Below, piece after piece: positions 3,401-54,591 of a stretch of DNA of 64,000 nucleotides. Each line of letters begins with the position of its first letter. Position 1 is the first letter of the stretch. The notes beneath the pieces were generated by a model, which made no database searches, was not told the DNA's origin, and saw nothing but the letters and a program-made list of their open reading frames with translations. The position numbers were made by a program, and so were the translations under genes. Location of the stretch: positions 1-64,000 of the forward strand of contig VKHL01000067.1 of the NCBI GenBank assembly GCA_015146655.1. The letters are read 5' to 3'. This DNA is from Ochromonas danica (Eukaryota > Sar > Chrysophyceae > Chromulinales > Chromulinaceae).

Positions 3401-6400
3401 TTATCTTTTTCTAGCAAAAACGAACGCAGCCAAACCCAAAAGACCCGCTGCAGCAGCTCCTCCAAGTATTAACCAGCTGCTGCTACCACTCGATGTCGGA
3501 GCAGGGGGAGGGGTATCGGAAGGGAGAGGAGCTTTCACAGACTCCGAAGCAATGTTGGAAACAGCGACGATCTTCAAAGCATACAAACCCATAGCTTTAG
3601 CGGCAAGGACAGCATCGTGGAGGTTTTGATCGTTGTTCAGCATAACCTCGTCTTTGTCCTCATCAACGTACTTGATCAGAGTGTTGTCCACGGGACATTT
3701 AAGCACTTCAGCAACTGCGGCTCTCAAGTCTGCCAAAGATTTGGGGACGCAACGCACTTTGTGAATATTGCCATCTTTGTCAGTAACTTTAAAATCATAT
3801 TCGGTTGCAAATAACTCTCTTTTGGCATTGGACTGGATTGTGAAGTCATCCGGAGAATGAATTGACAATCTTTCAGAGTTCATTTCCAAAGCATACTTCG
3901 CTCGAATAAGAGAAGGTTGATGACTGCCAACGAAAGAATCAGAGTGAGATTTGATATCGGACACAGAGTCACCATCTCCTCTCGCCACCATGGCTGACTT
4001 GAAGAATGCCCTCCAGCCTTTGCCCTGACCTTCGCCACCTGCACTGTGACATAACAGATCCATCACATCCACCAAACCCATCACTTTGCCATCCAATCCC
4101 TCATCCTTCACAGGAAGATGCAAATACTTGTGGTCGTGCATCTCCTTTAAGGCATCCAACAAAGTCAGATCCGCGGAGACACAGTCAGGATTGGGAGTCA
4201 TAATACTAGATACAGCAGTAAGATCTGCGGGTCTATTCTTGGAAACCACCCGCATAAGCAAGTCCTTCGGAGTAACAATACCTACCACCTCCTCATCAGC
4301 TCCTAACACAAGCAAACCCTTCCTGTACTTAACCATCAAGCACGAAGCCTCACGAACATTGGCGCTCTCTCGAATAGAAGGCAACACAGCTCCATCCAAA
4401 ATCTTTCGTAGAGTGGGCACCGAGCCACCGAACATCTGCTCCATAAACGCCTGCATAGCCAGCATCTGACCCTTCTTAGCATTGCGACCCCCTGTCTGCA
4501 GCGCCGCCGTCATCATCTGCGCCAATGCGGCTGCTGATTTGTCTCCCCCATCGCCTTCTTGCTCATCCACCTTCTCCAAGATTGAAATCGCATCATACAG
4601 ACACTTCGCGATGTCGAGCAACCCAACCACCACTCCGTTGTTGTCTAACACTGGCAAATGACGGAAGTGATTATCCACCATCAGCTCCAGGGCATCCAAA
4701 GCGGAATCGTCGACATGAACGCATTTGGGATTACGAGTCATCACTTGGTCGACCGTGATGGTGTTGGGGTCGATGAACTGAGAAACCACCTTGCGCGTTA
4801 TGTCATTGTCTGTTATGATACCAGACAAGCTGCCATCTGGACCCAACAGCAGCGCTGCATCCACACGATTCAAAGCCATCTTGGAGGCTACTTCCAAGAT
4901 CGTACTGCTATCGAGTGCTGTGATAGGAACCTTCGGACGAAGCTTCGACACTGGACGCTCCAATTCTTTCGCTTTCTTCTCTTCCCCAGCGGAAGCTGTC
5001 TTCGAAACTGCGTTACTTTTACCCGGATTGTTGGCTAGGCCTTTGCTCCGAACCGTACTAGCTGAGTGGCTTCTCTCAGAGCCTGTATCAGAAATGCCGT
5101 CGCCATCACCTCTCGCCACCATGGCTGACTTGAAGAATGCCCTCCAGCCTTTGCCCTGACCTTCGCCACCTGCACTGTGACATAACAGATCCATCACATC
5201 CACCAAACCCATCACTTTGCCATCCAATCCCTCATCCTTCACAGGAAGATGCAAATACTTGTGGTCGTGCATCTCCTTTAAGGCATCCAACAAAGTCAGA
5301 TCCGCGGAGACACAGTCAGGATTGGGAGTCATCACTTCGGAGACCAATGTACTGTCAGCATCCAAACGTTTCGCCACGACACGTGATAGCAAGTCTTTGG
5401 GAGTCAAGATGCCCACCAAATCCTTTCCTTTCCTCCCACCTAACACCAAAATACCCTTGCGAGCTCGGGCCATGATTTGGGCTGCATCGCGAACAGTGCA
5501 TCCCTCCACCACACTGTGAAAGTCCTGACTCGAGAGAATCTTTCGCAGAGTGGGCACCGAGCCACCGAACATCTGCTCCATAAACGCCTGCATAGCCAGC
5601 ATCTGACCCTTCTTAGCATTGCGACCCCCTGTCTGCAGCGCCGCCGTCATCATCTGCGCCAATGCGGCTGCTGATTTGTCTCCCCCATCGCCTTCTTGCT
5701 CATCCACCTTCTCCAAGATTGAAATCGCATCATACAGACACTTCGCGATGTCGAGCAACCCAACCACCACTCCGTTGTTGTCTAACACTGGCAAATGACG
5801 GAAGTGATTATCCACCATCAGCTCCAGGGCATCCAAAGCGGAATCGTCGACATGAACGCATTTGGGATTACGAGTCATCACTTGGTCGACCGTGATGGTG
5901 TTGGGGTCGATGAACTGAGAAACCACCTTGCGCGTTATGTCATTGTCTGTTATGATACCAGACAAGCTGCCATCTGGACCCAACAGCAGCGCTGCATCCA
6001 CACGATTCAAAGCCATCTTGGAGGCTACTTCCAAGATCGTACTGCTATCGAGTGCTGTGATAGGAACCTTCGGACGAAGCTTCGACACTGGACGCTCCAA
6101 TTCTTTCGCTTTCTTCTCTTCCCCAGCGGAAGCTGTCTTCGAAACTGCGTTACTTTTACCCGGATTGTTGGCTAGGCCTTTGCTCCGAACCGTACTAGCT
6201 GAGTGGCTTCTCTCAGAGCCTGTATCAGAAATGCCGTCGCCATCACCTCTCGCCACCATGGCTGACTTGAAGAATGCCCTCCAGCCTTTGCCCTGACCTT
6301 CGCCACCTGCACTGTGACATAACAGATCCATCACATCCACCAAACCCATCACTTTGCCATCCAATCCCTCATCCTTCACAGGAAGATGCAAATACTTGTG

Positions 6401-9400
6401 GTCGTGCATCTCCTTTAAGGCATCCAACAAAGTCAGATCCGCGGAGACACAGTCAGGATTGGGAGTCATCACTTCGGAGACCAATGTACTGTCAGCATCC
6501 AAACGTTTCGCCACGACACGTGATAGCAAGTCTTTGGGAGTCAAGATGCCCACCAAATCCTTTCCTTTCCTCCCACCTAACACCAAAATACCCTTGCGAG
6601 CTCGGGCCATGATTTGGGCTGCATCGCGAACAGTGCATCCCTCCACCACACTGTGAAAGTCCTGACTCGAGAGAATCTTTCGCAGAGTGGGCACCGAGCC
6701 ACCGAACATCTGCTCCATAAACGCCTGCATAGCCAGCATCTGACCCTTCTTAGCATTGCGACCCCCTGTCTGCAGCGCCGCCGTCATCATCTGCGCCAAT
6801 GCGGCTGCTGATTTGTCTCCCCCATCGCCTTCTTGCTCATCCACCTTCTCCAAGATTGAAATCGCATCATACAGACACTTCGCGATGTCGAGCAACCCAA
6901 CCACCACTCCGTTGTTGTCTAACACTGGCAAATGACGGAAGTGATTATCCACCATCAGCTCCAGGGCATCCAAAGCGGAATCGTCGACATGAACGCATTT
7001 GGGATTACGAGTCATCACTTGGTCGACCGTGATGGTGTTGGGGTCGATGAACTGAGAAACCACCTTGCGCGTTATGTCATTGTCTGTTATGATACCAGAC
7101 AAGCTGCCATCTGGACCCAACAGCAGCGCTGCATCCACACGATTCAAAGCCATCTTGGAGGCTACTTCCAAGATCGTACTGCTATCGAGTGCTGTGATAG
7201 GAACCTTCGGACGAAGCTTCGACACTGGACGCTCCAATTCTTTCGCTTTCTTCTCTTCCCCAGCGGAAGCTGTCTTCGAAACTGCGTTACTTTTACCCGG
7301 ATTGTTGGCTAGGCCTTTGCTCCGAACCGTACTAGCTGAGTGGCTTCTCTCAGAGCCTGTATCAGAAATGCCGTCGCCATCACCTCTCGCCACCATGGCT
7401 GACTTGAAGAATGCCCTCCAGCCTTTGCCCTGACCTTCGCCACCTGCACTGTGACATAACAGATCCATCACATCCACCAAACCCATCACTTTGCCATCCA
7501 ATCCCTCATCCTTCACAGGAAGATGCAAATACTTGTGGTCGTGCATCTCCTTTAAGGCATCCAACAAAGTCAGATCCGCGGAGACACAGTCAGGATTGGG
7601 AGTCATCACTTCGGAGACCAATGTACTGTCAGCATCCAAACGTTTCGCCACGACACGTGATAGCAAGTCTTTGGGAGTCAAGATGCCCACCAAATCCTTT
7701 CCTTTCCTCCCACCTAACACCAAAATACCCTTGCGAGCTCGGGCCATGATTTGGGCTGCATCGCGAACAGTGCATCCCTCCACCACACTGTGAAAGTCCT
7801 GACTCGAGAGAATCTTTCGCAGAGTGGGCACCGAGCCACCGAACATCTGCTCCATAAACGCCTGCATAGCCAGCATCTGACCCTTCTTAGCATTGCGACC
7901 CCCTGTCTGCAGCGCCGCCGTCATCATCTGCGCCAATGCGGCTGCTGATTTGTCTCCCCCATCGCCTTCTTGCTCATCCACCTTCTCCAAGATTGAAATC
8001 GCATCATACAGACACTTCGCGATGTCGAGCAACCCAACCACCACTCCGTTGTTGTCTAACACTGGCAAATGACGGAAGTGATTATCCACCATCAGCTCCA
8101 GGGCATCCAAAGCGGAATCGTCGACATGAACGCATTTGGGATTACGAGTCATCACTTGGTCGACCGTGATGGTGTTGGGGTCGATGAACTGAGAAACCAC
8201 CTTGCGCGTTATGTCATTGTCTGTTATGATACCAGACAAGCTGCCATCTGGACCCAACAGCAGCGCTGCATCCACACGATTCAAAGCCATCTTGGAGGCT
8301 ACTTCCAAGATCGTACTGCTATCGAGTGCTGTGATAGGAACCTTCGGACGAAGCTTCGACACTGGACGCTCCAATTCTTTCGCTTTCTTCTCTTCCCCAG
8401 CGGAAGCTGTCTTCGAAACTGCGTTACTTTTACCCGGATTGTTGGCTAGGCCTTTGCTCCGAACCGTACTAGCTGAGTGGCTTCTCTCAGAGCCTGTATC
8501 AGAAATGCCGTCGCCATCACCTCTCGCCACCATGGCTGACTTGAAGAATGCCCTCCAGCCTTTGCCCTGACCTTCGCCACCTGCACTGTGACATAACAGA
8601 TCCATCACATCCACCAAACCCATCACTTTGCCATCCAATCCCTCATCCTTCACAGGAAGATGCAAATACTTGTGGTCGTGCATCTCCTTTAAGGCATCCA
8701 ACAAAGTCAGATCCGCGGAGACACAGTCAGGATTGGGAGTCATCACTTCGGAGACCAATGTACTGTCAGCATCCAAACGTTTCGCCACGACACGTGATAG
8801 CAAGTCTTTGGGAGTCAAGATGCCCACCAAATCCTTTCCTTTCCTCCCACCTAACACCAAAATACCCTTGCGAGCTCGGGCCATGATTTGGGCTGCATCG
8901 CGAACAGTGCATCCCTCCACCACACTGTGAAAGTCCTGACTCGAGAGAATCTTTCGCAGAGTGGGCACCGAGCCACCGAACATCTGCTCCATAAACGCCT
9001 GCATAGCCAGCATCTGACCCTTCTTAGCATTGCGACCCCCTGTCTGCAGCGCCGCCGTCATCATCTGCGCCAATGCGGCTGCTGATTTGTCTCCCCCATC
9101 GCCTTCTTGCTCATCCACCTTCTCCAAGATTGAAATCGCATCATACAGACACTTCGCGATGTCGAGCAACCCAACCACCACTCCGTTGTTGTCTAACACT
9201 GGCAAATGACGGAAGTGATTATCCACCATCAGCTCCAGGGCATCCAAAGCGGAATCGTCGACATGAACGCATTTGGGATTACGAGTCATCACTTGGTCGA
9301 CCGTGATGGTGTTGGGGTCGATGAACTGAGAAACCACCTTGCGCGTTATGTCATTGTCTGTTATGATACCAGACAAGCTGCCATCTGGACCCAACAGCAG

Positions 9401-12400
9401 CGCTGCATCCACACGATTCAAAGCCATCTTGGAGGCTACTTCCAAGATCGTACTGCTATCGAGTGCTGTGATAGGAACCTTCGGACGAAGCTTCATTACG
9501 CTTCTGGATGGTTCTGTTTCAGTGTTTTCAGCTGTTGGTTTCCTTGTTGCTGTTGTGCGGGTGCTTATCGAAGTGTATACTGACGGGGCGTTACCGCTAG
9601 GGATAGTCTTAGCCTTTGGGGCTTGTTCGCCTGCTGAAGCTACCTTGGGTCTACTTGCAACTGTAGAAGTTTGAGGCGCTGCCGCGATAGTAGCTGAAGG
9701 ACGAGGTGGGATCTCTTTCTTTTGCTCCACTTCGTCATCGCTGTCTTCCACAGTCAAGAGAAGAGCCTTCACTTCGTCGATTTTCTTTTCTATTTCGTCA
9801 CAGAGCAGGTATTGTTTCTTGCTTAGAGCATCTTTAGAGTCCTTTTCAAGTTGCAAGAGCTGCTTCTTGAGATCTGCTTTTGATGGCAGTTTACTCAAAG
9901 CAATTTGCAAGGTTTCGAGTTCGGAATTCAACTGCTCGCAAAGTTGGTATTGCTTTTGCTTGACCGCAGCGGCGATTTTGGCCTCATGCTCATCAATTAA
10001 TTTGAGTAGTTCCTTCCTCGTCCATTGCTTCTCTTCGGCTTCAGGCACAGAAGCAGCCGTCGCTTCCTTCGCAGGCTCTTTGACTTCCTCAACGATCTTA
10101 TCGGAGGACTCATTTCCAGGCTTTGATTGAAGGTGACGCAGGGATTCAATGTGAATATGAAGCTTCGCCATCTCCAGGAAGTCTGTCGTCTTCAGACAAT
10201 TTTCAAAATCTGCCGTCAAACGAACGATTTTTGCGGCGACTTCGCTCTCCGTGAGAGCCTTCTCGCTTAAAAGAGCCTCAACCCCGTCAAGTTCCAACTG
10301 GATATTGCTGCAGGCGTCAAACTGCTTCGCCAACAGAGCAGCAGATAAGTCACTTTCCAAGGAAGCCTTGCGGGCTTTCAGCTCTTCTACCGTCAAGTTG
10401 CCCGCCTTGTTCTTTTGTTTCAAGTCATTCAATTGCTTCTCCAAAAGGAGCAGCTTGTTTTGAAGCTCACTACAGACTTTAAACTGTTTGCTGTCCATAG
10501 CCTTTTTCAGATCCGCTTGCACAGTCTCGATCGACTGGCTCACTTCTTCAACAGTTGGGAACTGGGAGCGGAGATTCTCTAAGCGAGTTAGTAGACTAAC
10601 CAACTGCTCCGCATATTTGGAATCTTTTCTTGCATAGTAATCAAGAGCAAACTTGACTTCAAGGTAAAAGAGTTCGACATCTTCGCGACTTTCCGGCGAG
10701 CGAAGAGGAAGACCAATGCTCTCTCGAACTTCCAGAATTAGCGAAATCGACTGTTCTAAATGTGCGCAGAGCTCAAACTGTCTTTCCGCAAACGCCGTTG
10801 CCAACTCTTGGTGCATTCTGAGTAGATGCACAGTAAGTTCATCATAGCCCAGCTTGCAGTAGGGATTCATATTTTTTCGAACGCGGATTCTGGCCAGCTT
10901 TCCTCTCATCACACTCTGAATAGCGACAACGTTCTGCAGCTGTGCTCGGAAAAGACGAACACACTTCAGTCTACGACAAAGGGACTGAATCAATACCACA
11001 GAACGCCGTAGCTTCCGAAATCTGGAGCGAGCTGCAAATCCTCGAATCACTGCCTGAAGATGTGTTGCTTTCTTCCTCTTGAGAATCTTCACAAAGAAAC
11101 GTTGAAGAACGCGTACCGAGAGACACCATCTCAGCCATAGCAACTGATCTAATTTGTCGCTAAGTTCACGCCTCAGGAAAATCTTGGTCGCGCCAACTTG
11201 CCAAGACTCATCGCTGACGGAGAACAGGCGAGATAGATGCTCCACAAGCTCCTTTAAGGTTCGTGACGAAGGATTCAAACAAGAAAACTTTTGGAAAAAA
11301 TCCTTGTGCTCAATTCGCAGAGCATATCCTTGTTGACGAATGCGGATGGTCTCCAACATTCCTGAATATTTGAGCTGGATCAAAGTCTCTATTCCATTGA
11401 AGAGATTGCCTTGTTTGAAGCAATTAGGCTTGATGCAACGAATAAAATGGGGCTCTGTTGTCTCAAGAATACTTTCCAATTGCTTCATGGAACCAACAAA
11501 TTGTTTGCTCACGCTGTCTTCCTTCAACTTACTCACAAAAGATGCTCGCGGAGGGACTTTCGCGGATGCGCCATTGGCACCGCCCATTTGATTGATGGAG
11601 GGCTTCCGCACCAATTTCGAGCTGTTGTTGGAGGAAGAGGCAGTATTAGCAGCCGCGGAGTTAGTAGCAGCTTGATTCGCGGCTTCATTGGCAGCGAAAT
11701 CATTCCAAATGATCTTCAACAGAGCGTTCTCGCTTTTGGAAAGAAGGTCTTTCAGATCGTTGTTCATGGCTTCTCTGTTCTTTTCCACAAACCCTTCGAT
11801 CTCGTAGAACACCTCTCCGGCGTAATGCAAGATGCCAAATCTCTGGTCAGAATTGAATCTGGGACAAACATAGTTGGCGTGGCGTGGCGCATTTGTGCTG
11901 CCACTGAAGGACATGTTGATTGCCGTGAGGAAGCCGCTGTTCGAATCCTGACGAATGTTGCTCGACGAGTCGTCTAAAGTCTGAAAAATGCCTGCTTTCC
12001 CTTGAGGTTTTCCATCAATGAGCTCAATACAGGCCAAGTTATCTTTGAAATCGATGTAGGACCAATCGATGCCTTCCAGCTGATACTCTGCTTGCTCGAT
12101 TTGAAAAATATGTTTGTTGAAGTGGTTTTGCATCTTTTCGTTCGCATAGTTGATCAACAGCTGCTCAAAGCTATTGAGATTCTCGAAGTTCTCGAAGCCA
12201 TAAATATCCAACAGTCCGATGAAACCTGCGCAAGAGATTGTTCATTGTTAGGAAATGCAGATGATGACGCAAAGAAGAAAGTAACACCTGAAGTTAGCTT
12301 GTCAGATGGATTAATCGTGTAGTTGATCTTGTCAACCAGCCAAGAGAACAGAAGCGAATAAATGCTCTTTGCCAAGGAGTTTTTCTTGTCCAAAGCCTGC

Positions 12401-13906
12401 GATTAGATTACGACGAGAGCGCATCCAGTCAGCACAAAACAATTTACTGGGCATATGGTGTTACTGACCTGATCGACTGTCTGGCTCTTGACAATCACAT
12501 TACCGTTCACATACATGTTTTGTTTGGTCAGACTGGTCACAATGTCGGCTGGATCCAGGCGAAGCAGTTCAGCCATGGCACTCAGAGCTTTGGCGCTATC
12601 TGGCGTCACATCATGGGCATTGTCTTCCACGTCAAGCTTTTGGAAAGAGATGTTTCCTAAGTGCAATATGCTGGCCAGCAAGCGAAAGATGCCAGTCTGA
12701 ATGCTCTCATCGTCTGTAATGCTGTTCAAGCATTCTGCAGTTCGCCTCCACTCTTCCTTATCAGAAACATTGGGAATGTCACTAGACAGCTTGGTTCCGC
12801 TAAGATATAGATAGGAATCGATCGATCTCTCCAGTCCGAGATAGCCCAAGAAGCTGTCGTCGCTTCCCTTCAGCAATTGGTAGAAGATGTGGAAGTTCCT
12901 TTCGCCTTCGATTTGCCGCACGAGACGAGTCTTTTCTAGTAAGTACTTCTCGATAGTAGCTCCAACGATCCTGCCGTTAGTGGAAAAATGGATTTTGATG
13001 AACTGCAAGAGACAGATTAGTTATTAGCTCAGCACCATAACCAAGCATGAAACAAGACTTTACCTTGCCAAACCTGGATGAATTGTCATTTCGTAGTGTT
13101 CTCGCGTTGCCAAAGGCCTCCAAGATGGGGTTAGAGTTCAGCACTTTCTGCTCCAACTGGCCGATGTGCGCGTGTTCTTCATTGCCGTCCACTTCAAAGA
13201 AACTCTCCAAGCGTCTGCTTTGAGCTGCAGCAATAAATGCCAGATAGCGCATCATCACTTTCGTAGCCTCGGTCTTCCCCGAACCTGACTCTCCAGAAAT
13301 GATGATGGACTGGCTCTTCGTCTTGTTGCTCGCGATGCCCTCCATCAGCGCGCGATAGCAAGCCTCCGCCACGGCAAACAAGTGAGGAGGAAGCTCGCCC
13401 AATTTCCTCGCGTGATACAGCTCTGTGGTTGTTTCATCGTAGAGTCCATCTATGATCTTGTAGGGATTCAAGCTGATGAGAATTGGTCCCACATTCGTGT
13501 AGATGTCATCCCTCGAGTAGCGCACGCGCAGAGTGTGGACGAGAGACATCTCTGAGAAGTCTCTGAGCTTTAAAATGTCATCTACGCCTTCATCGTCATC
13601 GGTTGTCACTTTGGTAGCTTCCGTCAGCTTCGTGAGCTCTCCGCCAGGCAGGCGGACAGTGAGGATGCCTCCTTCCTCCTTGATGATCGCAGCCGGGGCA
13701 TAGTAGTTTAGGCCGATCCAATCAGCATCTCGATTGGCCAAATCAGAGGAAAGGACTTTTGCAGGATCGAAGAAGACCGTGACCTCTTCTTTGCCTGTGA
13801 CGATGTCCACGGCAATCTTCTTGTTCGCGCCAGCCTTCGTTGGTTTCGGCCTCTTGTTATCAGCTTTCTGAGCCAACGATTTTATTGACTTTACGGACTT
13901 TGACAT
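3401..13906 (-). CDS. Tail-anchored myosin fused to UVR-like repeats, five CBS-CBS units and a PB1 domain
   Basis: Model: exons 13906-13064, 13002-12469, 12396-12288, 12225-3401; introns of 61, 72 and 62 bp, all GT-AG; 3436 aa. The splices restore SSRFGK-FIKIHF, TVDQ-ALDKK and LTSG-FIGLLDIYGFENF exactly as expected in a myosin head. The motor (about 80-845) has the P-loop GESGSGKTEATK, switch I NDNSSRFGK and switch II LDIYGFE, so it should bind ATP. IQ-like helices follow at about 850-950. At about 975-1310 lie about six UVR-like K-Q-[FY]-x-x-C-x-x-[LI] coiled repeats. Residues about 1405-3247 hold five units of four CBS motifs, normally sensors of adenine nucleotides. Then come a PB1 domain (about 3293-3377) and a C-terminal hydrophobic helix ending FARKR (about 3410-3436), a tail anchor. 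Plant and fungal CBSCBS-PB1 proteins have one such unit and no motor. An upstream in-frame ATG at 14077 exists; I prefer 13906. Confidence 0.86.
3970..9493. repeat. Tandem array of 1137-bp coding repeats (CBS units)
   Basis: Within the myosin gene, a 1137-bp (379-codon) unit is repeated about 4.9 times. The sequence AAGCTT recurs at 4940, 6077, 7214, 8351 and 9488, exactly 1137 bp apart. The first four units in protein order (9493-8357, 8356-7220, 7219-6083, 6082-4946) appear identical in all frames, so even silent sites match. The fifth (4945-about 3970) is identical over most of its length but has a block at about 4201-4411 that is clearly different, encoding a distinct third CBS motif, and it lacks the Ser-rich linker. 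Each unit encodes four CBS motifs (two Bateman modules), so the array holds about 20 CBS motifs. Confidence 0.95.
4201..4411 (-). other. Diverged CBS3 block inside the last repeat unit
   Basis: In the last unit the third CBS motif reads SIRESANVREASCLMVKY and VLGADEEVVGIVTPKDLL, where the other units have HSVVEGCTVRDAAQIM and VLGGRKGKDLVGILTPKDLL. Sequence on both sides is identical to the other copies. This mosaic looks like an old original copy overwritten on its flanks by conversion or unequal exchange. Confidence 0.85.
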
Positions 13907-14297
13907 CACCCAGAGGAGATGAAAACTCGATCCTTCAATGACGAACAGAGGCAACGACCGATTGGGTTGATGGTTCGAATTGTCCGTCACCCCCCAGCCC
14001 TTCCTCTCTCTTGTTAAGTTAAGTGACATTTCAACAGCAGAAAAGGAGCCCAACTCGACTTTCACCAAAGTCGACATTTAACATCTTCAACTGCCACATC
14101 AATCATGTCTATGACTATTAAATTACTGAATAGACTATAGCAGATAGCAGAGCGCAATTTAGAAAAAGTATTGACTCGCTTGCAGCTTAAATGGACAACA
14201 AAAGGGATTCATCATCTCCCTTGGCCACACGTGCTTATAAACACAAACCAAACTAGATCCACTATATACAGAACAACGAGTGAATGTTGTCAATCAA
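13907..14297. other. Intergenic region upstream of the myosin gene
   Basis: This 391-bp gap lies between the preferred myosin start and the 3' end of the BEACH gene, both on the minus strand. The motif TTAAGTTAA sits at 14014-14022, 108 bp upstream of the preferred myosin ATG at 13906. The myosin frame remains open to an ATG at 14077, so part of the gap could be coding if translation starts there. No other gene is seen. Confidence 0.5.
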
Positions 14298-17200
14298 CTA
14301 GATTGAGAGCATACCGATCTCGATCAATTGTCTGTGCAGCTTCCTTCTCAAGTACTCTGAATCCTAACAAAAGCGAGAAGAGAAGAGGAGAAAGAGGGTC
14401 AGAGCAGGAGGTAAGAGACGGAATAGAGCAGACCAGGAGACTATCATTACCTGGGCGAGAATGCGCACTTCACCATTATCCAGCCCCACCAGAAGATGCC
14501 TCTCGTTCGCTGTGAAGGCCAAGCTACGAATAGGGGCAGAGAAGGGCTCGAAATCTGGCTCATTGCTTCCGTCAATGACTGATTCCAGCCCTCTCCTGGC
14601 ACCAGTGCTCGCAATGGCCAGATTGTGGACCCATCGAATAACCACCAAGCCTCTCTCGCCACCTGTGAGAACTGTTCTGCCATCTTCAGACAGACACATG
14701 GCATGAATGCGCTCTCGCACCTGGATGAGCTTTAAGTAGCGTCCATTCTGCGTGTAGCTCGCCAAGATGTGTCCATCGTTGGAGAAAGCCACGATGTGGC
14801 CGTCTTTGGAGAGACCCAGCAAATGCACTCTGCACAATGCCTTCTCCAGTTGCTGAGCAGTGAACTGCTGCGATTGAGTATTTGCTTGTACCGCATGACG
14901 AGGGGTCATGGGAGATACCATACCATCCATGCTCATGCCAGCGATGCTTTTGCGCGAACCTTGTGATGGAGAGGCCTGCACTGAAGCAGTGTCAGTAATC
15001 GCCCCCACAATAATAGAGCGGATGTAGGACCCCTCTCGCAAAGAGTGAATCATAATGGTCCCATCATCTGACCCACTAACAATAAGATCTAGCTCTGCAT
15101 TCACCACAAGACAGTTTACAGTGTCATCATGGCCATAGAGGGTGTGGGCAGGAGTCGCATGCACAGGCTCTGTCTCTCGCTCGGGAAAGATCTCCCAGAC
15201 CGTCACAGTGCAATCCTTCGATCCCACGACAATCCAGTGTCGCCCAAAGTCAGAAGCTCCAGCAATGCAGGTGACCACCTCTCGATGGTGAGAAATAGAC
15301 TGAATAAGACGGCCCGTCTCAGCGAAAGTGACCTTGAAGGTGTTATCCCAGTGCCCACAACTAAAGATCAGCTTCAGCGGCCCCATGCAGTAAAATAGAT
15401 GAGAGCTCAAGTGATAATCAACTCTGTCGGCTTTGCGGTGATTAACTTTGCGAATCACCGTGGCTGGCGATTCCTTGAAATTTCCGCCGCTTTCACTCCC
15501 CGACTGGTCCACGGAAAACTGTGGGGTGGGTTGGAAATCCAGTTCTTCTTTGCCCTCATTCCTGCTCAACGGGCTAAATAATAGCTCATTGGAGGGCGTG
15601 GGGGTAGCTTTATCAATATCAGGCCAAGATGTACTGGCGACAGATGGAACTAGGAGCTTCATGGACGGCTTCAATGACATTGCTCTTGATGGACGTTTCT
15701 CTTCCGGCAATCTACCTCTCAGCTTTGTTTCTTCGTCTAAGTACTTCGATTTGTTTTGTCTCCCACCGATATCAAGTGAGGCGTAGGAAAAATGCGAAGA
15801 CAGATTGTCTAACAAGCTTGCATTCAACACAACTGCAGAGGCAAAGGGAACTCCCACCACCTTTTCCCTGCTCGCCGAAGTGTACGGCAGATAAGAAATC
15901 AATGAAGTACTAGAGCGCTGTCCCCCTTGACCACCTGTTTGAGTCACTGCAGTTTTGTCCAGCTTGATATTGAACGGGGGGATATGAGAAGGATTGCGCA
16001 TCTGAAACAGATGGTAGCCAAGCACGCGGTTCGTGTCAACTGTTATTAACCTCTCTGTTTCGCTGCAGGAGGCTAAAAATATAACTGGCACCTTCGAAAT
16101 CTTGTATTCTCCATAACAGAGGACGCGCTTTGGCTTTTCCAATGCTGCATCCTGGCTGTTGGTAATGGTATCAGCCCCCACTACAATGGATGCGATGGGC
16201 CAAAGAATATCCTCAACTTCAAGTAAGCTCTTGCGTCGAGGATGTTCCTTTTTGAACAATTGCAAAGGCGTTTGCCCATAGTTATCGATCTGCTGAATGG
16301 TTCGATCATAAAGATCACTGTCACTGGCTTTCATGGCGTCCAGATCAACAGCATCGGCGTAACTGAGATGGAAAAAGACGTTGCAGGCTTGTACAGCCTT
16401 CTCACTGCCGCCATTAAGATAAGGCGGTCGCTGTTTGCAACCAAAGATTAAATCTATCCAGTTATGTAGTTGGCTGCTAACATATTCGCTCTCCAAAGCA
16501 TCACGATGAATTCGAACGAAATCAACAGGATTTTTGCACCATCTGGGCAGAAGTACATCGTCTATAGTATCACCATCTTGGCGAGTACCCAGGCAGATAT
16601 GATTAATATTGCTCAGGAACTCTGGATTGCAAAAGAACTCAGGGATCAACTCTTTCACATCCTGGGTGTTCGTTGTGCAGCCATGAAATGTACTTCCGAT
16701 GTTATGGAAAAGTCGATCTGGACGGTCAAATTTTCCGTCTTGTAGCCAGACGTGATAAGAGGTGAAGGGCTCCATTCTGATCAAATACCACAGCACCATG
16801 GCTGAGGTGGAGTAGTGAGAGCCACAATTGTATGGGTAAATGCCTTCATCTTGTAGCTGCAAACTAGATTGATACTTCTCCATGAGAAGGTCCCTCTGGC
16901 TGTCAAGTTGAGCACCCATTGGCCGATCAAAGAGCCGATAGTTTTTAGGATCTCTTAGATCAATCTTGCTCGAAGTGTAGTTGGAGAGGACCCAAGGGAA
17001 GACAGGATATTGGGCAAGATCGTTATATGAGCGGCCAGCGATGAAATTCAAGAACATCAAATAGTCAAAGTTGGAAATCTTGCGAGCCACCCAAGCCTGA
17101 GTCAGAGTCAATCCAGAGGCTGTAAACACTCGACTGATCGCATTCTGAGGACGACCAGTAAAGATCATATTCAGATTGGGTGTCTTCATTCTTCGCACAA

Positions 17201-20200
17201 GAAAGGAATAAACTCGTTTGGCAGCATTGCTCTCAAACAAATTGAAGAAGAGACTGGTGCGATTTGTGAAGAACACCTCCAAAGCCACATAGCGGAGCTG
17301 ATAGTGGCGACGATACACTCCGGTGATATCGCTGCCAGACCAAGACATGGAGGGGAAGCATTGGCAGGCCCAAAGAAACTCATTGTTGCCTGTTTTGTTC
17401 TCAAAGTCATAGTCAGCCAACTCGCTGTGGCGCTGGAAAGACATCTTCAAGCGACTGACTTCCAGCTTGCCCGAGGTCTTCCCTCCAGAAGAATTTGTGG
17501 CAGGAGATATTATCTCTGCATCAATAGAGAGAACGTCAGAATCACCAGGAAGTATTGAGTCCATTGCGTGAGCATCCTCTCCTTGTGCGTCCTCCTCTCC
17601 GTCTGAAAAATCTTCGTCGTCCTTTTCATTTTCGTCCTCATTGGCCAAATGCCTCTTTTTGCTTCCTCCTGGAGTGATCGGTTTAAACTTCTTGAGATCA
17701 ATTTCAACCCATCCCCGAGGACTTGCATCGACCAACTCAGTATTATCATCACTCAAACTCTCAAACTTGCCAGAAGCTTTGAAAGAGGCTATGGTGTGGC
17801 GGGTGCCGAAGATGTTTCTCTTCAAGCGGAGCTTCAAATGGGTGTTGAGCTCATTGTCATCCAACGTCCAGTATATCTCTTTCTTGTGATCAACACTATA
17901 ACCCCATGGCCCGCGCTCGTTTGCCAATTGCGCAAAGAGTCGACTTCTCTTCATCTCAGCCCGACGATTATTTATCTCTTCAATACGCAACAGGGCAGTC
18001 AATCGATTCCATTCCAATTGATTTACCAATTCCACCACATCATTGGGCTGACCCGCGTTAACTTCTTGCCGAAGTGGACTAGGTAGCTTAGTTGAAAGTA
18101 TCTCGGAAGATAAAATTGAACTGGGAGCATCCGTACGGATTCCATCAACCAACAAACGACTCATTTCATCAACCATTATCAAGCAAAAGCAATCCAAGAA
18201 TTTAGCCGCTGCTTGCCACACAAAGCATTTGTTTGCTTGAGAAGACTCTTCCCCAAATCGAACACCGTGAGTAAATAAAACATCAACGAACTCTTGATCT
18301 GCGCAGAAGAAAACTTCTTTTCGTGGCGCTTCATCCATTTGCTTGCAAGCATCTTTGAATCGAAATGGGGGAACATTCTGACCACGCAAATTCACCATCA
18401 CGTTTAAGGCAGAATCAAGTTTGACTTGACTGCAATTTGCGTCGCCGTCTGAATCAAATGATGTGTGGCTGCTGATGGCATTGATAAGATCTTGCAACTC
18501 TTGAAGAGATTGTGTGAAGAGATGGCCAACGAAACTATTTTCACGGTCCAACAATCTCAACGAAGAGCTCATGCCCACTAAATGGAGCCTTTCGCATAAA
18601 AATATCCCTTTATTGGACGACTGCAAAGAGTTTAATATATGCTCATAAGCAGGTGCAAAGCATGCGCTCCAGTTGCCTTGAGGATGGAAGGTAACAAGAC
18701 TTCGATGGAACTGCATGAGAATGTGTAGAGCAAGGAGGAAAAGGAGACCGCGCAATTCTGTTTCGTCTTCTCTTGTTCGGCAACACGGTTTCAATGCATT
18801 TGGCATCTTCTTCCCATCTTCTACCACTGCCCGAAGCTCATTCTCTATTCCAACAAAAATATTTTGGCAATCGACGAACAAACCAGCAACAGAGAGGAAG
18901 GCCTTAATTAGAGTCCAATTGAAAACAATATGATGGTCTTTGCTTGAGGAATCGTCACGATAAAGATTCTCATAAATAAAGTCTACCTCAAGGAAATCAT
19001 CTTTTAATTTGCTTTTGACAAGAGGCAATAGCCCATCGATCCATATTTGGGACAACCCATTTTCCTTCTTCCAATTATCTGAATCATTGAACCAAACCAA
19101 ATGATCAAGAAGGGACAAACCAAACTTGCTTACGACCAACAGACCAGACTTGCTTATCGACAGGTTGCTCAGGTCCCAAACAGAAAAGGAAAGAATGACA
19201 ACACGAAACACCAAAAACAAAGCGCTTTTCTGGTAATCAGCGAATATATCGTGCAAAATAATCAAGGTCTCTCGAGCCGCTCCGCTATTATCGACTGCAG
19301 TTAAAGGTGGTTGCGAAGACCCATAAATGGCAGATCGATCGCTTTGCTTCAGTAAGGAGGCATAATGAATAAGCGAAGTCAATATTTCGACCGTGTGCAT
19401 TATACCGCCCACAGTGCACCAAGAGTTGGAAGTATCAGCGAGGTAGGTCGTGCTTTGAAGCCGCAATAACGACGCTAAATCAACAGCCCAACCCGAAATG
19501 GCAGCAATTTGAAGTGCGGTATCACGGTTAGACAATATTTTTGACATCCTTTCTAGAACCACATCGCCAAAGTTTTTCATGAGCATGGCATGAGAAGAAA
19601 GCAACCGGATGATGGTACAATAAATTGCGGGATAATAAACAGTATCACACTCAATACTAAAGTGCGATTTGAGAATAGGGGTCTCCATTTCACTTGGAAC
19701 GGCCAAAGTCCCATGCAAGATGTTGAATAATATCGACAATATCCAAGGTGCTAACTCTTCTTCATGCTCAGGTGGTATTCTGAGAAGCATCGCTTCACAT
19801 ATGAGTGGAATGTTTTTCTGTAAATCAGAAAATTCCACGAAGGCTCTGTCCGCCCGTGACGATGCTTCTAACAGAGCACCTGCAGGAGATCCCAGAGGCG
19901 ATTGGTGGTATGGCGAAGTAGGACTCTCTATGCCGACATGCATCCTGCCTATTTCACGATCATGCTGAGTGGTGATCGGTGCCAATCGTTGCGAAGGAGA
20001 AATTAGGGAGTAATAGCTGGAGCCGAGATTGGACGCAAAATGGGCTATTGTGCTCGTCAAATACATGACCGATCGTAAAACTTGGAGATTGTTTATCTCT
20101 AATAAACTCTGAAAACTCGACAGAGAATCCCTGAGAGTGAAAGGCAGAAGAATAGTTCTCCTCTTTTCTGGACCTGCAGTAAGGACCAGCAGATCATTTA

Positions 20201-23200
20201 AGAATTGCAATGTCTCCACTTTGTTTCGAATGTCTTTCGTCTTGACTAAATACTTTATTAAGCCGACAATCGCCTCAAAAGTATACATATCCTGATCAAT
20301 GCATAACTTTATGAGACGATAAATCTTCGATCGAATTTGTTGCAGCTGCTCGTCTGATAGAGCGGATCTGATTATGTCCCAGTGCTCCGTTCTAGAAACA
20401 ATTGGAGGTGGGGAAAGTGACAGTCTAGCCGAAGGGTATTCATCTTTATCCCCCTCAACATAGTCCAGCGATCGACCGATAAAATCCATCTCGCCGACGT
20501 TAGAGCCGTTATGAGCAGAACTTGACAACGGAGAAGAAGGAGATTGTAACGGGCCAATATAATCGTAATGTGCATAGAAAGTGTCAATAAATCGTTGTGG
20601 GGAGCTGGCAGATGGAAAATGACTCAAAGCCCAATCCCGCATGGCGTTAGTTAACCAATCGAGCCAGCAAATTTGCACTAGTGCTGAAGATCGCGACCAA
20701 AGCTTGAAATTACATAATATTGCATCGAAGCAAGATTCCTTTGCTCCGCTATCATCCTTTAGATTTTCAAGAATTGCAATAAACTGGTTCAAAGTGATGA
20801 GGTTGAAGCAATCAGCTGGTGCCCTTTCTAGGAAGTCTCTGATGACAGCAAATCCACCACATCGCAGAAATATTCGTTTGTTCTCATCATTATCTTCCAG
20901 CAAGGTAGTGAACAACCCCAACACAGCTGGAAAGAAGTTGCCATCCAGTGCTTGGTTGGATAAACCATCGCCGTCATCAAACGACTCGCTGGAATCGCTT
21001 CTCAGCATTCGAAAGCGGTCGTGACTGATCAACTGAGCAAAGAGAGGAATAACCACCTTGATCCCACCCAATGAGTTCAATGCCAGTCGAACATCCTGCA
21101 AGGTTGAACGATACGTGCCAGGCAAGCGCATGGCGTGCATACGACAATGTTTCGGCAGATCCGCACGCAAATCATCGTTCACTTCCACACCATTCGGCAA
21201 TCGCCAAAGCACTTCGTTCTTTTCCGGTGTATTGTCTACGAAGTACTTCCCTCTCAAGACAACAGGATTGTATGCCAAAAGAATTTTAGCCGTCACACTG
21301 CCATCATCTATCGCAGATTTTTTATCCCCTCTCCGTTTGACAGCTGAAGCAGAGAAATCTCTGCTGCCAACAATATGAGATTTGAAGTTATAGATATAGT
21401 CTGGCCCCAAAGCATAGATGCCTTGAACCTGTTGATCTGTCAGCGCTTCACCAAAGAAATATATCGCTCCCAACTGACCACGCAGTGTCTGGTGTTCTTT
21501 TTTGTTTCGATAGCGCCTGGCACCATCCCCAATGAGTGGCTCAGGAACTGTTTCGGGCATCTTCCACAAGCTAATCTCCTCTTTGTAGAGAAGATGATCG
21601 AGATATAGCTTTAACTCAGATCTAGCGTAGAAGTGCGGTGAGGTTAGGGACAGCGCCAAGAAGTACCACTTATCCTCCATCAATTCCATTCCATAATGAG
21701 GCTCAGGGCTAGCTGAAAGAGTGGCTCCTTGGTCATTGATGTACTGAAAGCAGAGGGTGATGGCTCCACCAGGTTTTGGCTGTTTCAAAAGAAGTTGGAA
21801 ACCACAACCATTCTGATCCCTCAGACTGAACACACGAGGAACGTAGCTGATCGAATTATAGTCGATTTTGGGTGATTCTACTCGCAGCCAACAAGAAAAG
21901 GAAAAGCCTTTTGTTTTGGGCCAGCGATAGATGGCGGGCAAAAGCAAACCACTTTGATTGCCATCAAAGACAAAAGTATGTTTAGGGCCGAATTCCTCGC
22001 GAAACATACCTTGCAAAGCCTGGATTACTTTCCAAGCATATGCAGGACTGCTGCCATCGTTTCGTTGTAGGATGCGGAAAAGATGCTTGAGTGAAGAGAC
22101 AGATACCATGTACCGCCCAAGGAAGTCCAAGAGCTCTGCATTGCAAGTTTGAATGCTATCTGGTATGTAAGGGAAGAGGTCAAGGACAATATCAAATACT
22201 TTGGGTCTGGCAGAGGAGCAAACAGCGAGGTTCACCAGCGAGCCACGGCCAGAGACAAGGTTACGAAAAGACTCCAGAGCAAAGCGTTGTATAGGGAGAG
22301 AGCAATGTGGAATGAGCTGGAAGAAGTCCGGCAAAATAGCTGTGTTGCGAATGGTAGGCTTGTCGTCTTCGTGTCGCGCGAAGAGACCGGGAAGCGCCGA
22401 TGAAGAAGAGACTTTGCCAAACAACGATCTGTACTCCTTTCCTGCATGCGGACCATCAAGCATTACGTCGAGAAGTATTACAATAGTCTCCTCGCTCGGT
22501 GATCGATCAGCTGTAAGAATCAAGCCAACCAATCCACTGGCACTTTTGCTCCACGATGGTGCAAAAGGTTTCTCTTTGCTGTCAAGAGACGAGAAAGAGA
22601 AGGACGATCCGAATCGCACCCGCGAAGAGCCAAACTTCTCGCGACTAGTACTCAACAAGACGCGCAGCGCATTTTTGCATGCTTCGTTACCACTGACAAT
22701 GGCGGTTAAGGCTGCCAAACCCGCACCAAGAATAGTTCGATGGGACAAAGCGAAATCAAACACTTCGTTGGACTGCGACGTTGGAGACGGCAGATCTTGA
22801 TCACCAAAGCGCCTTGCCAAAGATCGTAACAATTCGCATATCATATTTTCTCTTCGAATGAACTCTTGTATATAAATCCTCGACGTGACGAGACTTTCGT
22901 CTCGCAAAATGTTACTAATCGAGTCCAAGCATCTGCAGGCTGTAACGACACCAAATTTCCTGTTAGGCAATCTGCCGGAGACCGAGACCAGTTGAAAGAG
23001 AATCGCCAGAACCTCTGCAACTAGTGAACGCAAGGCCAGCTTGTTTTTCTGTCTCTCTGAGTATTCCGTTCCTGACTTCTCCATAGAGATCATAGAGGAT
23101 GCACAGGAAGTAATTATAGCTTCCATTATTTCCAATCCAGCCATTTGAAAATGCTCATTCAATAGCAGAGCTGTGATGGTGAAAAGATATTGTCTAATTT

Positions 23201-25897
23201 TGATGCTCTTATCAGCGTTGTCGATCCCTCTCACAAGCGGATCGGATAATCTTCGTTCTTTTCGTAATGAAACACCCGTAATTGAAACGCTACTATTGCT
23301 AACAATGCTTGGATTGCTTCCACTCCGCCCTCTGGTTAATAGACCAATTTCATGAGACAGATCTAAAGTCACATTGCCATCCGGCGACATGAAGAAGTCC
23401 TTACAAGTTAATTGCGCATCACTCCATGGCAAGAGAAAGTGCAAGAGTGCTTGTACCACTCCAAAGCATCCAGCCATCTCCATAAATGATTTATCAGCCG
23501 TACCAGGGACCTTCCCCCGCAATTGATAGTCAATGATATCGAGCAAACAACGCACCATGCGCTGCTTGAAATTTAAAGACGTTTCAAAAGCCATCGAGCG
23601 CACGATGTCGTTCAGATTCAACACTAGGGATACCATTTGATAAACAACATGGCCGGGACTATGGGAATGCTTGCACAAAGATAAGGTGTAGCGTGTCATC
23701 ACCTTCAATATGATATCCTCAGGACTCAAATACGATTGAACAGAAAGTTGTTCAAGATGGAAATGAATTGAGAAAACAACCAATCCATGGAAAAAGTCCA
23801 TGATGTTCTTTTGCAGATATAACCACAGATAGATAGGATGGTATTGCCTCTTCTTAACGCAGGACAATCTGATGTAAAGTGAGTTCTGTGCTCCCCAATC
23901 GAACTGAGCATCTTCAAATATCTCCGAAACATAGGTTGGAAAGTTGCTATAGGCTAAAAGAAATTGATCTCCAAGAATAAAGTTAAACGTTTCGAACTCG
24001 CTTATCAACGAGAAAATCGAGCTAGCATCAGCTGCCGTGAACATTTGCGATATGAACTCGACAAACTTCAGCTGTGTCAGAGGAATGCTGAGGCCAGGGC
24101 CTTCTTCATTAATCGCTTCCAGACTAACCAAAGGAACCGAAAAATTGCGGAAGAAACAGTCAAACGCCTCGTAAACGTAGTGAAGGTCTTCCTTCGGAAT
24201 CTTGGAAGGAGCGGAAGCAGTCGATTCACTCTCTCTGGAGAGAAGATAATAGCCCAATAGCTCGGAAATAACGCTGTCCCATATCAACGACCCCGCGTAA
24301 GTCTTTAGGGCATTGAGGACAGATGAGCGAGTACTTTTCGTTAAAATTCGGTAGTTGGCAAGTTCTGTCCCTCGGACCTTCTCGCGTTTGCTTGATATCC
24401 TCGACTCTTCCTCCCTCCATGGCCAGAGATCATGACTCGTAGCCACTCGACCAATTCTCAGCTCTTGCTCAATTAAAACAAAGTGATCCCTTGATTCCGC
24501 CATCTGCTGCACCCAGTCCCCAGGAGACCTCAGCTGATCGAATTCTCGGCTTAGCCATGCAAAGAGGTCTGCAACGGCTGCTGACGACAGAAGGCGTAGA
24601 GAATAATGCGATGCTTCTGGTTTAGCTTTTTGGAGATGCTTCAACAGCGAAAAGTTGAAGCGCAGACACAGCAGCTGCCTCCGAACGAAAATTGGCTTGT
24701 GCAGGATATCCACACGTAATTTCATATCAAACGAACGCTCTACAGCCTGGAAGACAGAAACCTCAGATAGAATAACGTTCGGACAAGTCGATGTTAAGCC
24801 AATGACACCGTGCAAAGCTTCCACCTCCACAATCATCATCCAGACCTTAACTTTCTCCGAGACATGCGAAAGTTGCTGCCATCCAACAATTGCCATTAAC
24901 AGATCCAGCAGCCACTTTAAGCTTCCTGCACTGACCAAGTTTTGAAGATAGTCTGTTTTCATTTTTCTGCCTTCAGAGGTGAGAGAGGAGTGTTCCTCAT
25001 TGAGAAGACTCTCACGAGATATCACCGTCTGCCAATCACGCGAAGTCTCTTCGAGGAGCTGATTCACCACAGCCTGTGACCAAGGCTGAGGAAGAAGAAA
25101 GTCCGAAAACTCTAATGGTTCTAAATCAAACCCTTGCCCAATGAGTTGAATCACAAGCAAAAGCGCTCGAAAGAGCTTGCAGAGAACTTCCTCCTCCAGC
25201 ACCATATGACAGCTGCCAAACTGGGTTTGAAGCTGCCGTCCCATTTCCAATATCAAGTAGGAGAATTGAGTATCCATAGTTTGCTTCACGGCTAGACAGT
25301 TGCGCGGCCATCGCATCAGAATGCTCAAGGCATGCAGAAGGTCGAGGAAATCGTCCCAGCCACGCGAATCTGGCAATGGAGAAAACAAGGAGGTGACAGA
25401 GATCAACTTCGGCAAGTCAGCATTGTTCTCGTGGTTGTTGTTACTGTCTTTGCTACTGCTGCTGCTGACAGGGTTAGTTTGTTTGTCCTCAACTGATGCG
25501 AGGCTGCGGAAGAGCTGCCGCGCAAGCGCACACACCATCGAGGCTGCGTGGCCTCCGCCTAGCTTTACTATTTTGCCTTCATAGAATTCAATGACAGCAG
25601 AAGCGATCGAGTGAAGACTCTTTCCGCCTGCGTCTCCATCGCTGTGAGCATTTGCTTGGCATTCTCCCCACAGCCTCCGCAGCTCTTGGCCTGGCACATC
25701 CTCACTGAACACAGCACACATAAGACAAGACTACCAAGGAGGATGAACGAGATTTACCTGAAATCTTCGAGCAAATTAATGGTCTCGTCCAGGTGGGGGG
25801 CAGGCAAGTCGCTCTCTTGGGAAGAAGCAGTTGCGGCTAGGCCAGCACCCTGCTTGGATTTGTTTCGGTCGCCAAAAAACTTGAGGAGTGCCGACAT
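14298..25897 (-). CDS. Giant BEACH-WD40 protein (LvsA/WDFY3/neurobeachin family)
   Basis: Model: exons 25897-25758, 25704-14451, 14363-14298, introns of 53 and 87 bp; 3819 aa, close to Dictyostelium LvsA and mammalian WDFY3. Exon 1 encodes MSALLKFFGDRNKSKQ and splices to the main frame as LLEDF-SEDVPG. The last exon adds DSEYLRRKLHRQLIEIGMLSI after RILAQ. Long helical armadillo-like N-terminus; a concanavalin/LamG-like domain at about 1310-1500 (GFSFSCWLRVE); PH-BEACH at about 2770-2900; BEACH core from about 2910 ([36 protein letters not shown]); WD40 repeats from about 3480 (GHDDTVNCL, SGSDDGTIMI). I see no FYVE finger, unlike WDFY3. Family members are cytosolic scaffolds in vesicle traffic, lysosome biogenesis and autophagy. 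The subfamily is uncertain. Confidence 0.9.
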
Positions 25898-32704: not shown

Positions 32705-35700
32705 CTAGCCATTCAATATGCCTCCCACTCCGAAGTGAATCACAGTGAGCAAGCCATGGCGCATCTGCTCCTCCAGGTGGTATTCGGGCATCTCGATGGA
32801 GAAGAAGCACGTGTGAGAGACTGGCAAGGCAGCTCGACCAGCATTGGTCAGCTTCATATTGGTAGTGAAATCCTCCTCGCGTGATGGAAGACGAGACCTT
32901 CCCCAAGCAAAGCGAATGAAGCCAGACTGTTCTCGTGGAGTGAGAGACTCCATCACTTTCCAGAAGAGCTCCACGGTGTCCTCCGGCAATCCGCTGCTTT
33001 CCGTGTGCGATTTCCACATGTTGATATCAATCTTTGGACTTCCACACACCAGCTCCTCCAGTTCGCTTGCAGTAAACAGCAATAAAGTTCGCATCGGCAG
33101 CACCAAGGCCATGCCTCTGGCCATGGCGGCGATCTGCAAGTCAAACTCCGCCAAACGAGCCGCCCGCACCGCTCGGCAATAATCCAATCGATTCTCAAAT
33201 GTAACTTCTTGTCGAGATCCTCCAGGCACCAACTCCCTTTCCATCTGATCGCTCCCAACATAGACGAATTTCAAGGGGCCGTTCTCAGAAGAGAACTTCG
33301 CCTGGAAAGAGACATCGTCCAGGACAGCCTCGTGGTCAGGCAGGTTGTCGCAATGCTCAATGTTCTCAATTTGCTTCGCAGTAATCATGTCAACTTCCAT
33401 CAGATCACGCATGGAATCCACTTCTTCGCCCACAAGCTTCTTCCATACAATGGGAGGGAAGTCGAAAGGCAGGCAAAGGTTTGATCGTAAAGACATTCCC
33501 ATGAGCTTGCCGACGAAAACAAACATTTCCAGAGCTAAAGGACCAGTATGCTTTGGGTTCGGGACAAATTTATCCATCTCCGAATGGACAGCTTGGCGTC
33601 CATTCGGGCTGAGCAGAAAGAGATTGAAGTGCTCAGAAAAGAGATCCTCCAAGATGCGTGACATTCCTTCACGGAAGACTCCCCCAGCATCGATTCCAGC
33701 CTCTCCCACAAATGTGATCGTGAAGACACGGTCACTATTGCGGAAGAAGGCAGGGTCTTTGCTGTGCAATTGTCGGAAGCACTGCACAAAGGTGTTCTGC
33801 GAAGTTGACGGATCTTTCTCTTCACGATCGCGACTCGCCAGAGCTTTGAAGTTATCCAAAGACACCGCCTCTGTCGCTCCCGAGCTATTCACAGATGCTG
33901 CAAGGGCGGCTGCTAATAAAGGAAGCTTCACTTGGGCCAGCATGTAGCGATTGTTGCGGCGAATCATAGCACCAAGAGAATGCGGATCTTCGTTGTTCAG
34001 ATCCACAAGTGGCAGTAACGATTCCAGAGCTTTGTTAAAGGCCAGTAAAAGCTGCGCACGCATATTAATGTCTAACAATGTGAGATGGGAGAGACAGTCC
34101 CCTTGATATGACAAGAAAGCCTTCGCCACGGCAAATGGTTCGGAAGAAGTTAAAAATGAATCTTGGCGTTGATTGCCTGGTATTCGATGCGTCTTCGTGT
34201 TTAGATATTCAAGCAATGCATAATCCCAACTGCGTCGCCAAGTGGAAAGACGATGGTGTACTTCCAAGGGTGTCAGAATCTGCTTCTTGCTGATAATAGC
34301 CGCCTCTAGACGGCTCTCAAAGCGAGCGGTATTGTTGAATGTACCCTTGGCAGAGATGCGCAGGAAATCGCCTTCTGGGTTCGAAACTTTTACGGCAACA
34401 CTCTCTTTATTCTCTTGCGCTTGATCATTCTCAGCAGAAGGAACGGAAGAAGTGGGCAGGGTGGATGAGCTGGGGTCAGGGGACATCGCATATCCGCACA
34501 TTGAACACCTGGTAACAGCACAATCACAATCGCATATTAAAGACAAACTTAAGCTAATTCCGAATAAGAAAACAAAACGTACTCTGTTGCCCGAAGATTA
34601 TTGATGAAAGTGCAATGCGGGCACCACCATCCAGCTCCAGCTCCTCCTTCGCTAGTAGCAGCCGCTCCGTCGCCAGCAGACCGAGGCTCGCCACAAGCAG
34701 AGCATGTTCGATCTTCCTCGACATTGATCAAAGTACACACAGAGCACGACCAGCCACTCTCCACCACAATTGCATCTTCTTCTTGGACTTGTTCACTTGA
34801 AGAGACTGGATCAGGTTTCGTTGTTTTCTCTTCCTCATGTTCATCCAGCGTGGGGGCGGAAGACTCGACTGGAGCAGGTGTGACGTTGATCGAATTGTTT
34901 AAGTCGCCACTTTCAGGTGCTGATTGACCTGATGGGCCAATTGTCGCGGCATGAAATGCAGCAGAGCTCATGCACCACAGCTGGTAAGTAAGTCTGTCTC
35001 CCACTACTTCGATGCTTGTGTTCCAATCAGAATACACGCGGAAATAGCTACCTTTGTCTAAACAGATGCGAACATGCCCATCAAGATCAATACAAACATA
35101 AACAACAACAAAATACACTACCTGAAGAGTGGGGAGTGATACACAAAGCTAATTCAAACGAATCTGAAGGAGATGGATCGCTTTTGTTCTTCACGGAAGA
35201 TCCTGTTCGGCTGATCTTGACCTCCAGCCGCGAAGCAAGCGGGACGATCAGACTGCCAGACTTCAACAAAACACCTTTCGAGACTATAACGGAAACATCA
35301 GTATCCAAATGAGTCTCCTCTGCATCCTTGGCATCAGTCTCTGATTGAGGAACTTTCTCCGCCAATGTGGAAGAGGGTGTTGAATTATCAACTTCGTCCG
35401 CAGGCAGCGAACTATTTCTATCGCGCTTGCCTCTTTTAGTGCGAGGCCTTAACGGTAAATTAGAGGGCGGCATCACTCCCTCGAAATCTTGGCCTGCGGC
35501 AATAATCTCCGCCGTGCTCTCTTCTGAAGAACTCTCTGCTCCATCATCTTCAATTGCATTAGTGTCCTCCAAACCACCAAGTAATTGTGGCCCTGGACTT
35601 GTCTCCTCAGGGCCGGAACTGGAACTATTGTTGGGCGGTGAAGGAGAAAAGGGCGGTTGATGCTGCGAGTGAGAGTCATCCTCTCCAGGACTCAATTGGA

Positions 35701-48994: not shown

Positions 48995-49209
48995 CTTGAA
49001 TAGAAAATATTTGACTCAGTTCGAAAGGATCTGTTCTTCTTCTTCTTGACGTGGAATTGCAGGATGCCGCCAGAGGATGAGCAGGAGAAACGCGTTGTTA
49101 GTAGAAGCACGTTGTTGGGAGAAACTCGTTGTTGGAGAAACAGTTTCCAGCGCATAGCAATAACTTTCAGCCTAGCCTATCCGCTTGTTCAACTTGTTCT
49201 CTCTCCGTC
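48995..49209. promoter_or_regulatory. Divergent intergenic region between HECT and acyltransferase genes
   Basis: A 215-bp gap between two divergent start codons, expected to contain both promoters. It shows imperfect repeats of GTTGTTGGAGAAAC/GTTGTTAGTAGAAGC around 49093-49140. An in-frame upstream ATG for the plus-strand gene exists at 49129 but would precede the hydrophobic leader. Confidence 0.4.
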
Positions 49210-54113: not shown

Positions 54114-54591
54114 GCAGTCGTTAACAGCTGACGGCAGGGGAGGAAGCAATTTCACCCTTCTGCCTTGTTGGGTGGTTGACTTGGTTTGATCTCCACCCCT
54201 GCTTAACTCAACTTAACTTAACAACCTAGCTTAACTTAACAACCACACGGTGACTTGGCTTGATGTGGTATGTAGTCTAGTGTAAATGCCAAGGTGTGCT
54301 TACCGGCACCAGCCGGCTACACACGCGGTATCCTATTTTCCAATGATCTTGACATTTAACTTTAAAATAAGGCTTCACAGTGAAAACTTAGTCAGTTGAT
54401 TAAGAAGAAGACATCTAAGATGTTGTACGTTATCATCAATCTAAACTTAACTATATGAACTAATACCTAATATTCATCGACAAGCGATATAGCGCGAAGG
54501 CCGTACATCCACCTTCAATATAGCGTCTTTAATAACTATAACTATATAACTCTAGCATCAACCCAACTGAAAGACAAATCGGCGTTCTCAT
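54114..54591. other. Intergenic region with clustered TTAACTTAA motifs
   Basis: A 478-bp gap between the sedolisin start and the kinase stop, both on the minus strand. TTAACTTAA occurs at 54213-54221 and 54231-54239, about 100-126 bp upstream of the sedolisin ATG, within a tract of CTTAACTTAACAACC-like repeats. TAGTCTAG occurs at 54273-54280. The 54400-54560 stretch is AT-rich. No gene is seen. Confidence 0.5.

Follow-up and report, generated by a model that had tools for sequence, protein, structure and literature searches.

Introduction

Class-XXIX myosins were described as a class of stramenopile myosins by Odronitz and Kollmar (2007; PMC2375034), and the passages of that paper concerned with their architecture refer to members from water moulds and diatoms. 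According to these passages, the proteins have three IQ motifs, short coiled-coil stretches, as many as 18 CBS domains, a PB1 domain and, at the C-terminus, a transmembrane domain. Little work has been done on the myosins of stramenopiles. A 2024 diatom study (PMC11420354) lists Class 29 among five diatom myosin classes and states that functional characterisation had not been achieved for any diatom myosin up to then; the relevant passages are silent on the tail of Class 29. Searches of an open-licence library showed no functional work on class-XXIX myosins. No word beginning with 'CBS' or 'PB1' appears in the main text of either the 2014 (PMC3942036) or the 2017 (PMC5583752) myosin classification, and neither term occurs in the available passages of PMC12050087. 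Because class 29 is absent from the 2017 list of six classes common to most stramenopiles (PMC5583752), the present name of the class may differ.

CBS and PB1 domains also occur together in proteins for which the published passages describe no motor, i.e., the CBSCBSPB proteins of plants (PMC2694836), whose name implies two CBS domains, and the (CBS)n-PB1 proteins of fungi (PMC2121648), for which an energy-sensor model has been proposed. A first-pass annotation of the DNA studied here had described such motorless proteins as ending in a C-terminal helix; both sources bear out the proteins themselves, but the helix is not met in the passages of either.

In this study, we analyzed a stretch of 64,000 nucleotides from Ochromonas danica (hereafter, the window) that contains a gene in which a myosin motor is followed by a very long CBS-rich tail. 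Based on this tail, we assign the architecture of the product with high confidence to the class-XXIX type, of which the protein is a putative member.

Gene organization and myosin motor

The gene model was rebuilt and agreed in length and position with the first-pass annotation (Table 1). The exons (13906-13064, 13002-12469, 12396-12288 and 12225-3401, minus strand) joined to an open frame with a single, terminal stop codon, and all three introns (13063-13003, 12468-12397 and 12287-12226; 61, 72 and 62 nt, respectively) had GT-AG borders. The splice borders were picked by eye from the DNA, and the model is a predicted one. An in-frame ATG lying upstream, at 14077, offers an alternative start codon. 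The last exon runs from the middle of the motor, just before switch II, through the IQ motifs, helical repeats, CBS array and PB1 domain to the putative anchor, and it is free of stop codons over approximately 2940 codons, whereas stop-free runs reached at most 195 codons in 50 shuffled versions of this exon (three frames, one strand). Since everything from mid-motor to the C-terminus lies in one open exon, the fusion needs no splicing. Thus, as far as can be judged from the DNA, the motor-tail fusion within one gene is real, as the first-pass annotation had proposed.

Table 1. Features of the myosin gene; positions are those of the window.
Feature	Position	Strand	Basis and remarks
Whole coding gene	3401..13906	-	4 exons, 3436 aa; start codon provisional
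Myosin motor	11171..13585	-	Residues about 108-847, interrupted by 3 introns; Pfam PF00063, motifs, solved-structure matches
Neck with three IQ motifs	10805..11149	-	Pfam PF00612, 3 stretches, E 3e-9
Six repeats of about 40 aa each, helical by eye	9746..10849	-	Visible cores; profile searches negative
CBS array of five units with four CBS domains each (20 in all), period 1137 nt	3978..9493	-	Pfam PF00571, repeat search, unit comparison
Divergent patch in unit 5, first CBS of second pair	4202..4409	-	Unit comparison
PB1 domain	3575..3799	-	Residues 3305-3379; Pfam PF00564 E 1.4e-10, second search 1e-11
C-terminal hydrophobic stretch, putative tail anchor	3416..3472	-	Residues 3414-3432; hydropathy

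Pfam profiles matched all three families that the first-pass annotation had expected in this gene, namely myosin head, CBS and PB1. The motor gave Myosin_head matches on each of three open reading frame pieces (E 1.2e-58, 8.4e-44 and 1e-74) and has an intact P-loop (GESGSGKT, residue 205, 13294-13271), switch I (NDNSSRFGK, residue 273, 13090-13064) and switch II (DIYGFE, residue 502, 12208-12191), all on the minus strand. Among the best 60 of 151 solved chains, the nearest motor by sequence was that of myosin X (5kg8; E 3e-147 with the whole sequence; 495.5 bits), aligned over residues 97-687 and 726-856, and the segment between the two aligned blocks looked rich in Ala, Asn and Ser. Within the same 60 chains, myosin X scored only about 30-70 bits over the best chains of other classes, i.e., VIIa (465.4), an 'unconventional myosin heavy chain' (444.9), XV (443.6), II (440.4), Va (433.9) and Ic (427.6). 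The motor is thus not clearly claimed by any solved myosin class represented in these chains.

The helices described as IQ-like in the first-pass annotation were recognized by Pfam as three IQ motifs. They are followed by six repeats with a [KRT]-[QD]-[FY] core visible in each and [FY]-x-x-C in five. The first-pass description of these repeats as UVR-like was only partly upheld: six helical-looking repeats exist, but no UVR family was matched up to E 10 (a search in which HMMER filters can lose weak matches), and the family name, which rested on likeness by eye, was dropped. A profile built from the six repeats gave a single match in the PDB, to a surface-layer protein (E 0.89).

CBS units of the tail

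The five predicted units of four CBS domains each were recovered both by Pfam (E 2.8e-169, 20 stretches) and as DNA repeats. The units start at 9493, 8356, 7219, 6082 and 4945 and correspond to 379 residues each. Tandem Repeats Finder, with a longest period of 500, reported nothing, and the 1137-nt period came from a general repeat search. Units 1-4 did not differ at any of their 1137 nt, and their copy number may therefore be misassembled. Unit 5 matched unit 1 exactly over 536 nt before and 224 nt after its divergent patch; within the patch, 36 of the 70 aligned residues were identical and 34 different, and 23 of the 36 shared residues were encoded by a different codon. From this comparison, unit 5 is best read as retaining an old alternative form of one CBS domain, flanked by DNA free of synonymous changes, the kind of pattern that recent gene conversion or unequal exchange leaves behind. 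Within a unit, both CBS pairs are related to each other, their alignment score being reached by none of 500 shuffles.

A G-h-h-T-x-x-D pattern lies at the end of half of the 20 CBS domains, always the first of a pair, which gives two such motifs per unit. Its T-x-x-D part was kept even in the divergent patch of unit 5 (GIVTPKDL), and it was missing from the second CBS of each pair: as judged partly by eye, D-x-x-D is present in the fourth CBS of a unit, and neither pattern in the second (GLLDIAK). We take G-h-h-T-x-x-D to be the ribose contact of adenine-nucleotide-binding CBS proteins. Comparison of the unit with solved structures revealed 33 distinct related sequences at E up to 0.001, the best being 2rc3 (E 1.8e-11), 4fry (8.1e-11) and MJ1225 (1.3e-10). 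Nucleotide binding by the CBS unit is plausible from these likenesses. AlphaFold models had a mean pLDDT of 38.9 for unit 5 with PB1 and the anchor (run with one other row) and 40.1 for the first CBS pair, too poor for inspection of the pocket.

Some other signals in this region were set aside. The Pfam family RoxA-like_Cyt-c scored 37.1 bits (cut-off 26.7) with no single significant stretch and 19.5 bits on two units, which pointed to inflation by the repeats, and ORC2 WHD, Pneumo_NS1 and other Pfam names below the cut-off were dropped as chance. With NCBIfam, two array pieces gave 21 and 25 families, bacterial and CBS-containing by name, none of them at the cut-off. On the opposite strand (4658-9674, plus), open frames of 126/125, 122/111, 112 and 100 aa recur at each unit; they follow from the repeats and show no sign of being genes.

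PB1 domain and C-terminus

The PB1 domain of the first-pass annotation was detected by Pfam, and its acidic stretch YVDEDKDEV looks like an OPCA motif. Matches of this domain in the PDB were weak (NBR1 PB1, E 0.24). The protein then ends, as had been noted from the letters, in a hydrophobic stretch followed by a short basic end (ARKR) and the stop codon. The mean hydropathy of the terminal 19-mer (2.24) was the maximum of the whole protein. Hydropathy suggests that this stretch is likely to be a C-terminal membrane anchor, falling short of proof because 2.24 was also reached in 57 of 2000 cases when the last 120 residues were shuffled, and windows within the CBS units reached up to 1.79.

Genomic surroundings and homology searches

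Other open frames lie in the window. The next gene upstream (14364-25730, minus) is a neurobeachin-like open frame of 3788 aa with DUF4704, PH-BEACH, BEACH and WD40 matches. Farther along are a 4642-aa open frame (35087-49015, minus) with three SPRY stretches and otherwise no Pfam match at 1e-5, a tripeptidyl-peptidase-like protease architecture (51237-54212, minus) in which a Pro-kumamolisin activation domain is joined by a match to the subtilase family (S8), and an 876-aa open frame for a TrkH-type cation transporter (58443-61073, plus). A HECT match was also found among the neighbouring genes. Genes of the BEACH-WD40 and HECT kinds are not diagnostic of any one lineage.

With unit 5, PB1 and the anchor as query, one scan of genome_contigs returned 24 stretches that included one relative, from a Gemmatimonadaceae MAG (36% identity over the CBS part), which was set aside as ordinary CBS homology. 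Two scans of viral_contigs yielded no relative: the first had no pattern match, and none of the nine pattern-matching stretches of the second encoded one. Rfam at gathering scores gave no match, and no tRNA was found.

Interpretation of the tail

Most likely, the protein is a motor held on an organelle by a tail anchor, with a CBS array that would bind adenine nucleotides, a function that we infer. The terminal helix would be inserted post-translationally in an organelle membrane as a tail anchor, and PB1 could link copies or adaptors there. Each CBS pair would offer roughly one canonical site for adenine nucleotides, which makes ten for the array, and the nucleotide level might thereby tune the reach, clustering or activity of the motor. 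The array might have grown recently, or been kept uniform, via unequal exchange or conversion of the 1137-nt unit. The predicted anatomy agrees with the first-pass idea of a motor whose own tail holds it on a membrane and carries CBS domains for nucleotide sensing between the two. Membrane anchoring of the protein is probable, and we have somewhat greater confidence in its identity and its being a tail-anchored motor, taken jointly. That nucleotide sensing is the main role of the array is a tentative suggestion. A bolder version, in which an organelle-bound motor reads cell energy directly, with the ten tail sites altering tail shape or clustering, the AMP/ATP ratio switching actin transport and the fast-changing number of units setting sensitivity, is speculative and rather unlikely.

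Three other explanations bear on these proposals. The array might act mainly as a spacer or multivalent scaffold, whose folded modules set the distance between membrane and motor, with any nucleotide binding being a vestige or serving structure. T-x-x-D is lacking in half of the CBS domains, and copy number seems free to vary, given the identical units 1-4 and the 'up to 18' CBS domains across members (PMC2375034); however, every pair retains T-x-x-D in its first CBS, even in the patch of unit 5 where 34 of 70 residues differ. We find a tail-anchored motor that responds to nucleotides the most appealing reading, yet such a spacer, which we would put at somewhat less than even chances, is about as likely. 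A similar degree of doubt attaches to the number of units, which may be an artefact of assembly in an otherwise genuine fusion, either by expansion of a shorter array or by collapse of a longer one. The four identical 1137-nt copies have no synonymous difference and exceed short-read length, and exact repeats are open to miscounting. On the other hand, recent unequal exchange also yields exact tandem repeats, unit 5 has a divergent patch and an end of its own, and the class is known to include long arrays (PMC2375034).

Finally, the motor and the CBS-PB1 protein could be two genes wrongly joined in the assembly, for which the motorless CBS-PB1 proteins of plants (PMC2694836) and fungi (PMC2121648) might be invoked. 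This appears highly improbable, because the single exon spans from the second half of the motor to the anchor and the same fusion has been published for stramenopiles (PMC2375034). The same exon disfavours separate transcripts, which the first-pass annotation had named, along with an assembly join, as the case against a fusion.

Comparison with known systems

With myosin X, the nearest solved motor, the gene shares the myosin motor, and the tail of myosin X is different from the one described here. The plant CBSCBSPB (PMC2694836) and fungal (CBS)n-PB1 (PMC2121648) proteins resemble it in combining CBS with PB1; in contrast with this gene, they have no motor as far as their passages describe them, and the plant proteins have two CBS domains by their name.

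The closest likeness is to the class-XXIX myosins (PMC2375034), whose published passages describe the same combination of motor, three IQ motifs, very long multi-CBS tail, PB1 domain and C-terminal transmembrane domain, the last being predicted here by hydropathy. As regards the short coiled coils described for the class, the tail studied here has six helical-looking repeats behind the neck. Its 20 CBS domains, two more than the published maximum, weigh against the assignment. The reading of the first-pass annotation stands with respect to architecture and one-gene fusion, but the implied novelty of a motor-CBS-PB1-anchor design does not, since the same architecture has been in print since 2007. 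The gene probably adds another, slightly longer member to a known motor class. It provides an intron-poor example of a CBS-PB1 myosin, with a uniform CBS unit suited to expression and ligand tests, and, if the assembly is right, its perfect repeats make it chiefly an example of how a folded module was recently multiplied in frame or made uniform. Only details are new here, namely a count of 20 CBS domains against a published maximum of 18, and units 1-4 that are identical in DNA.
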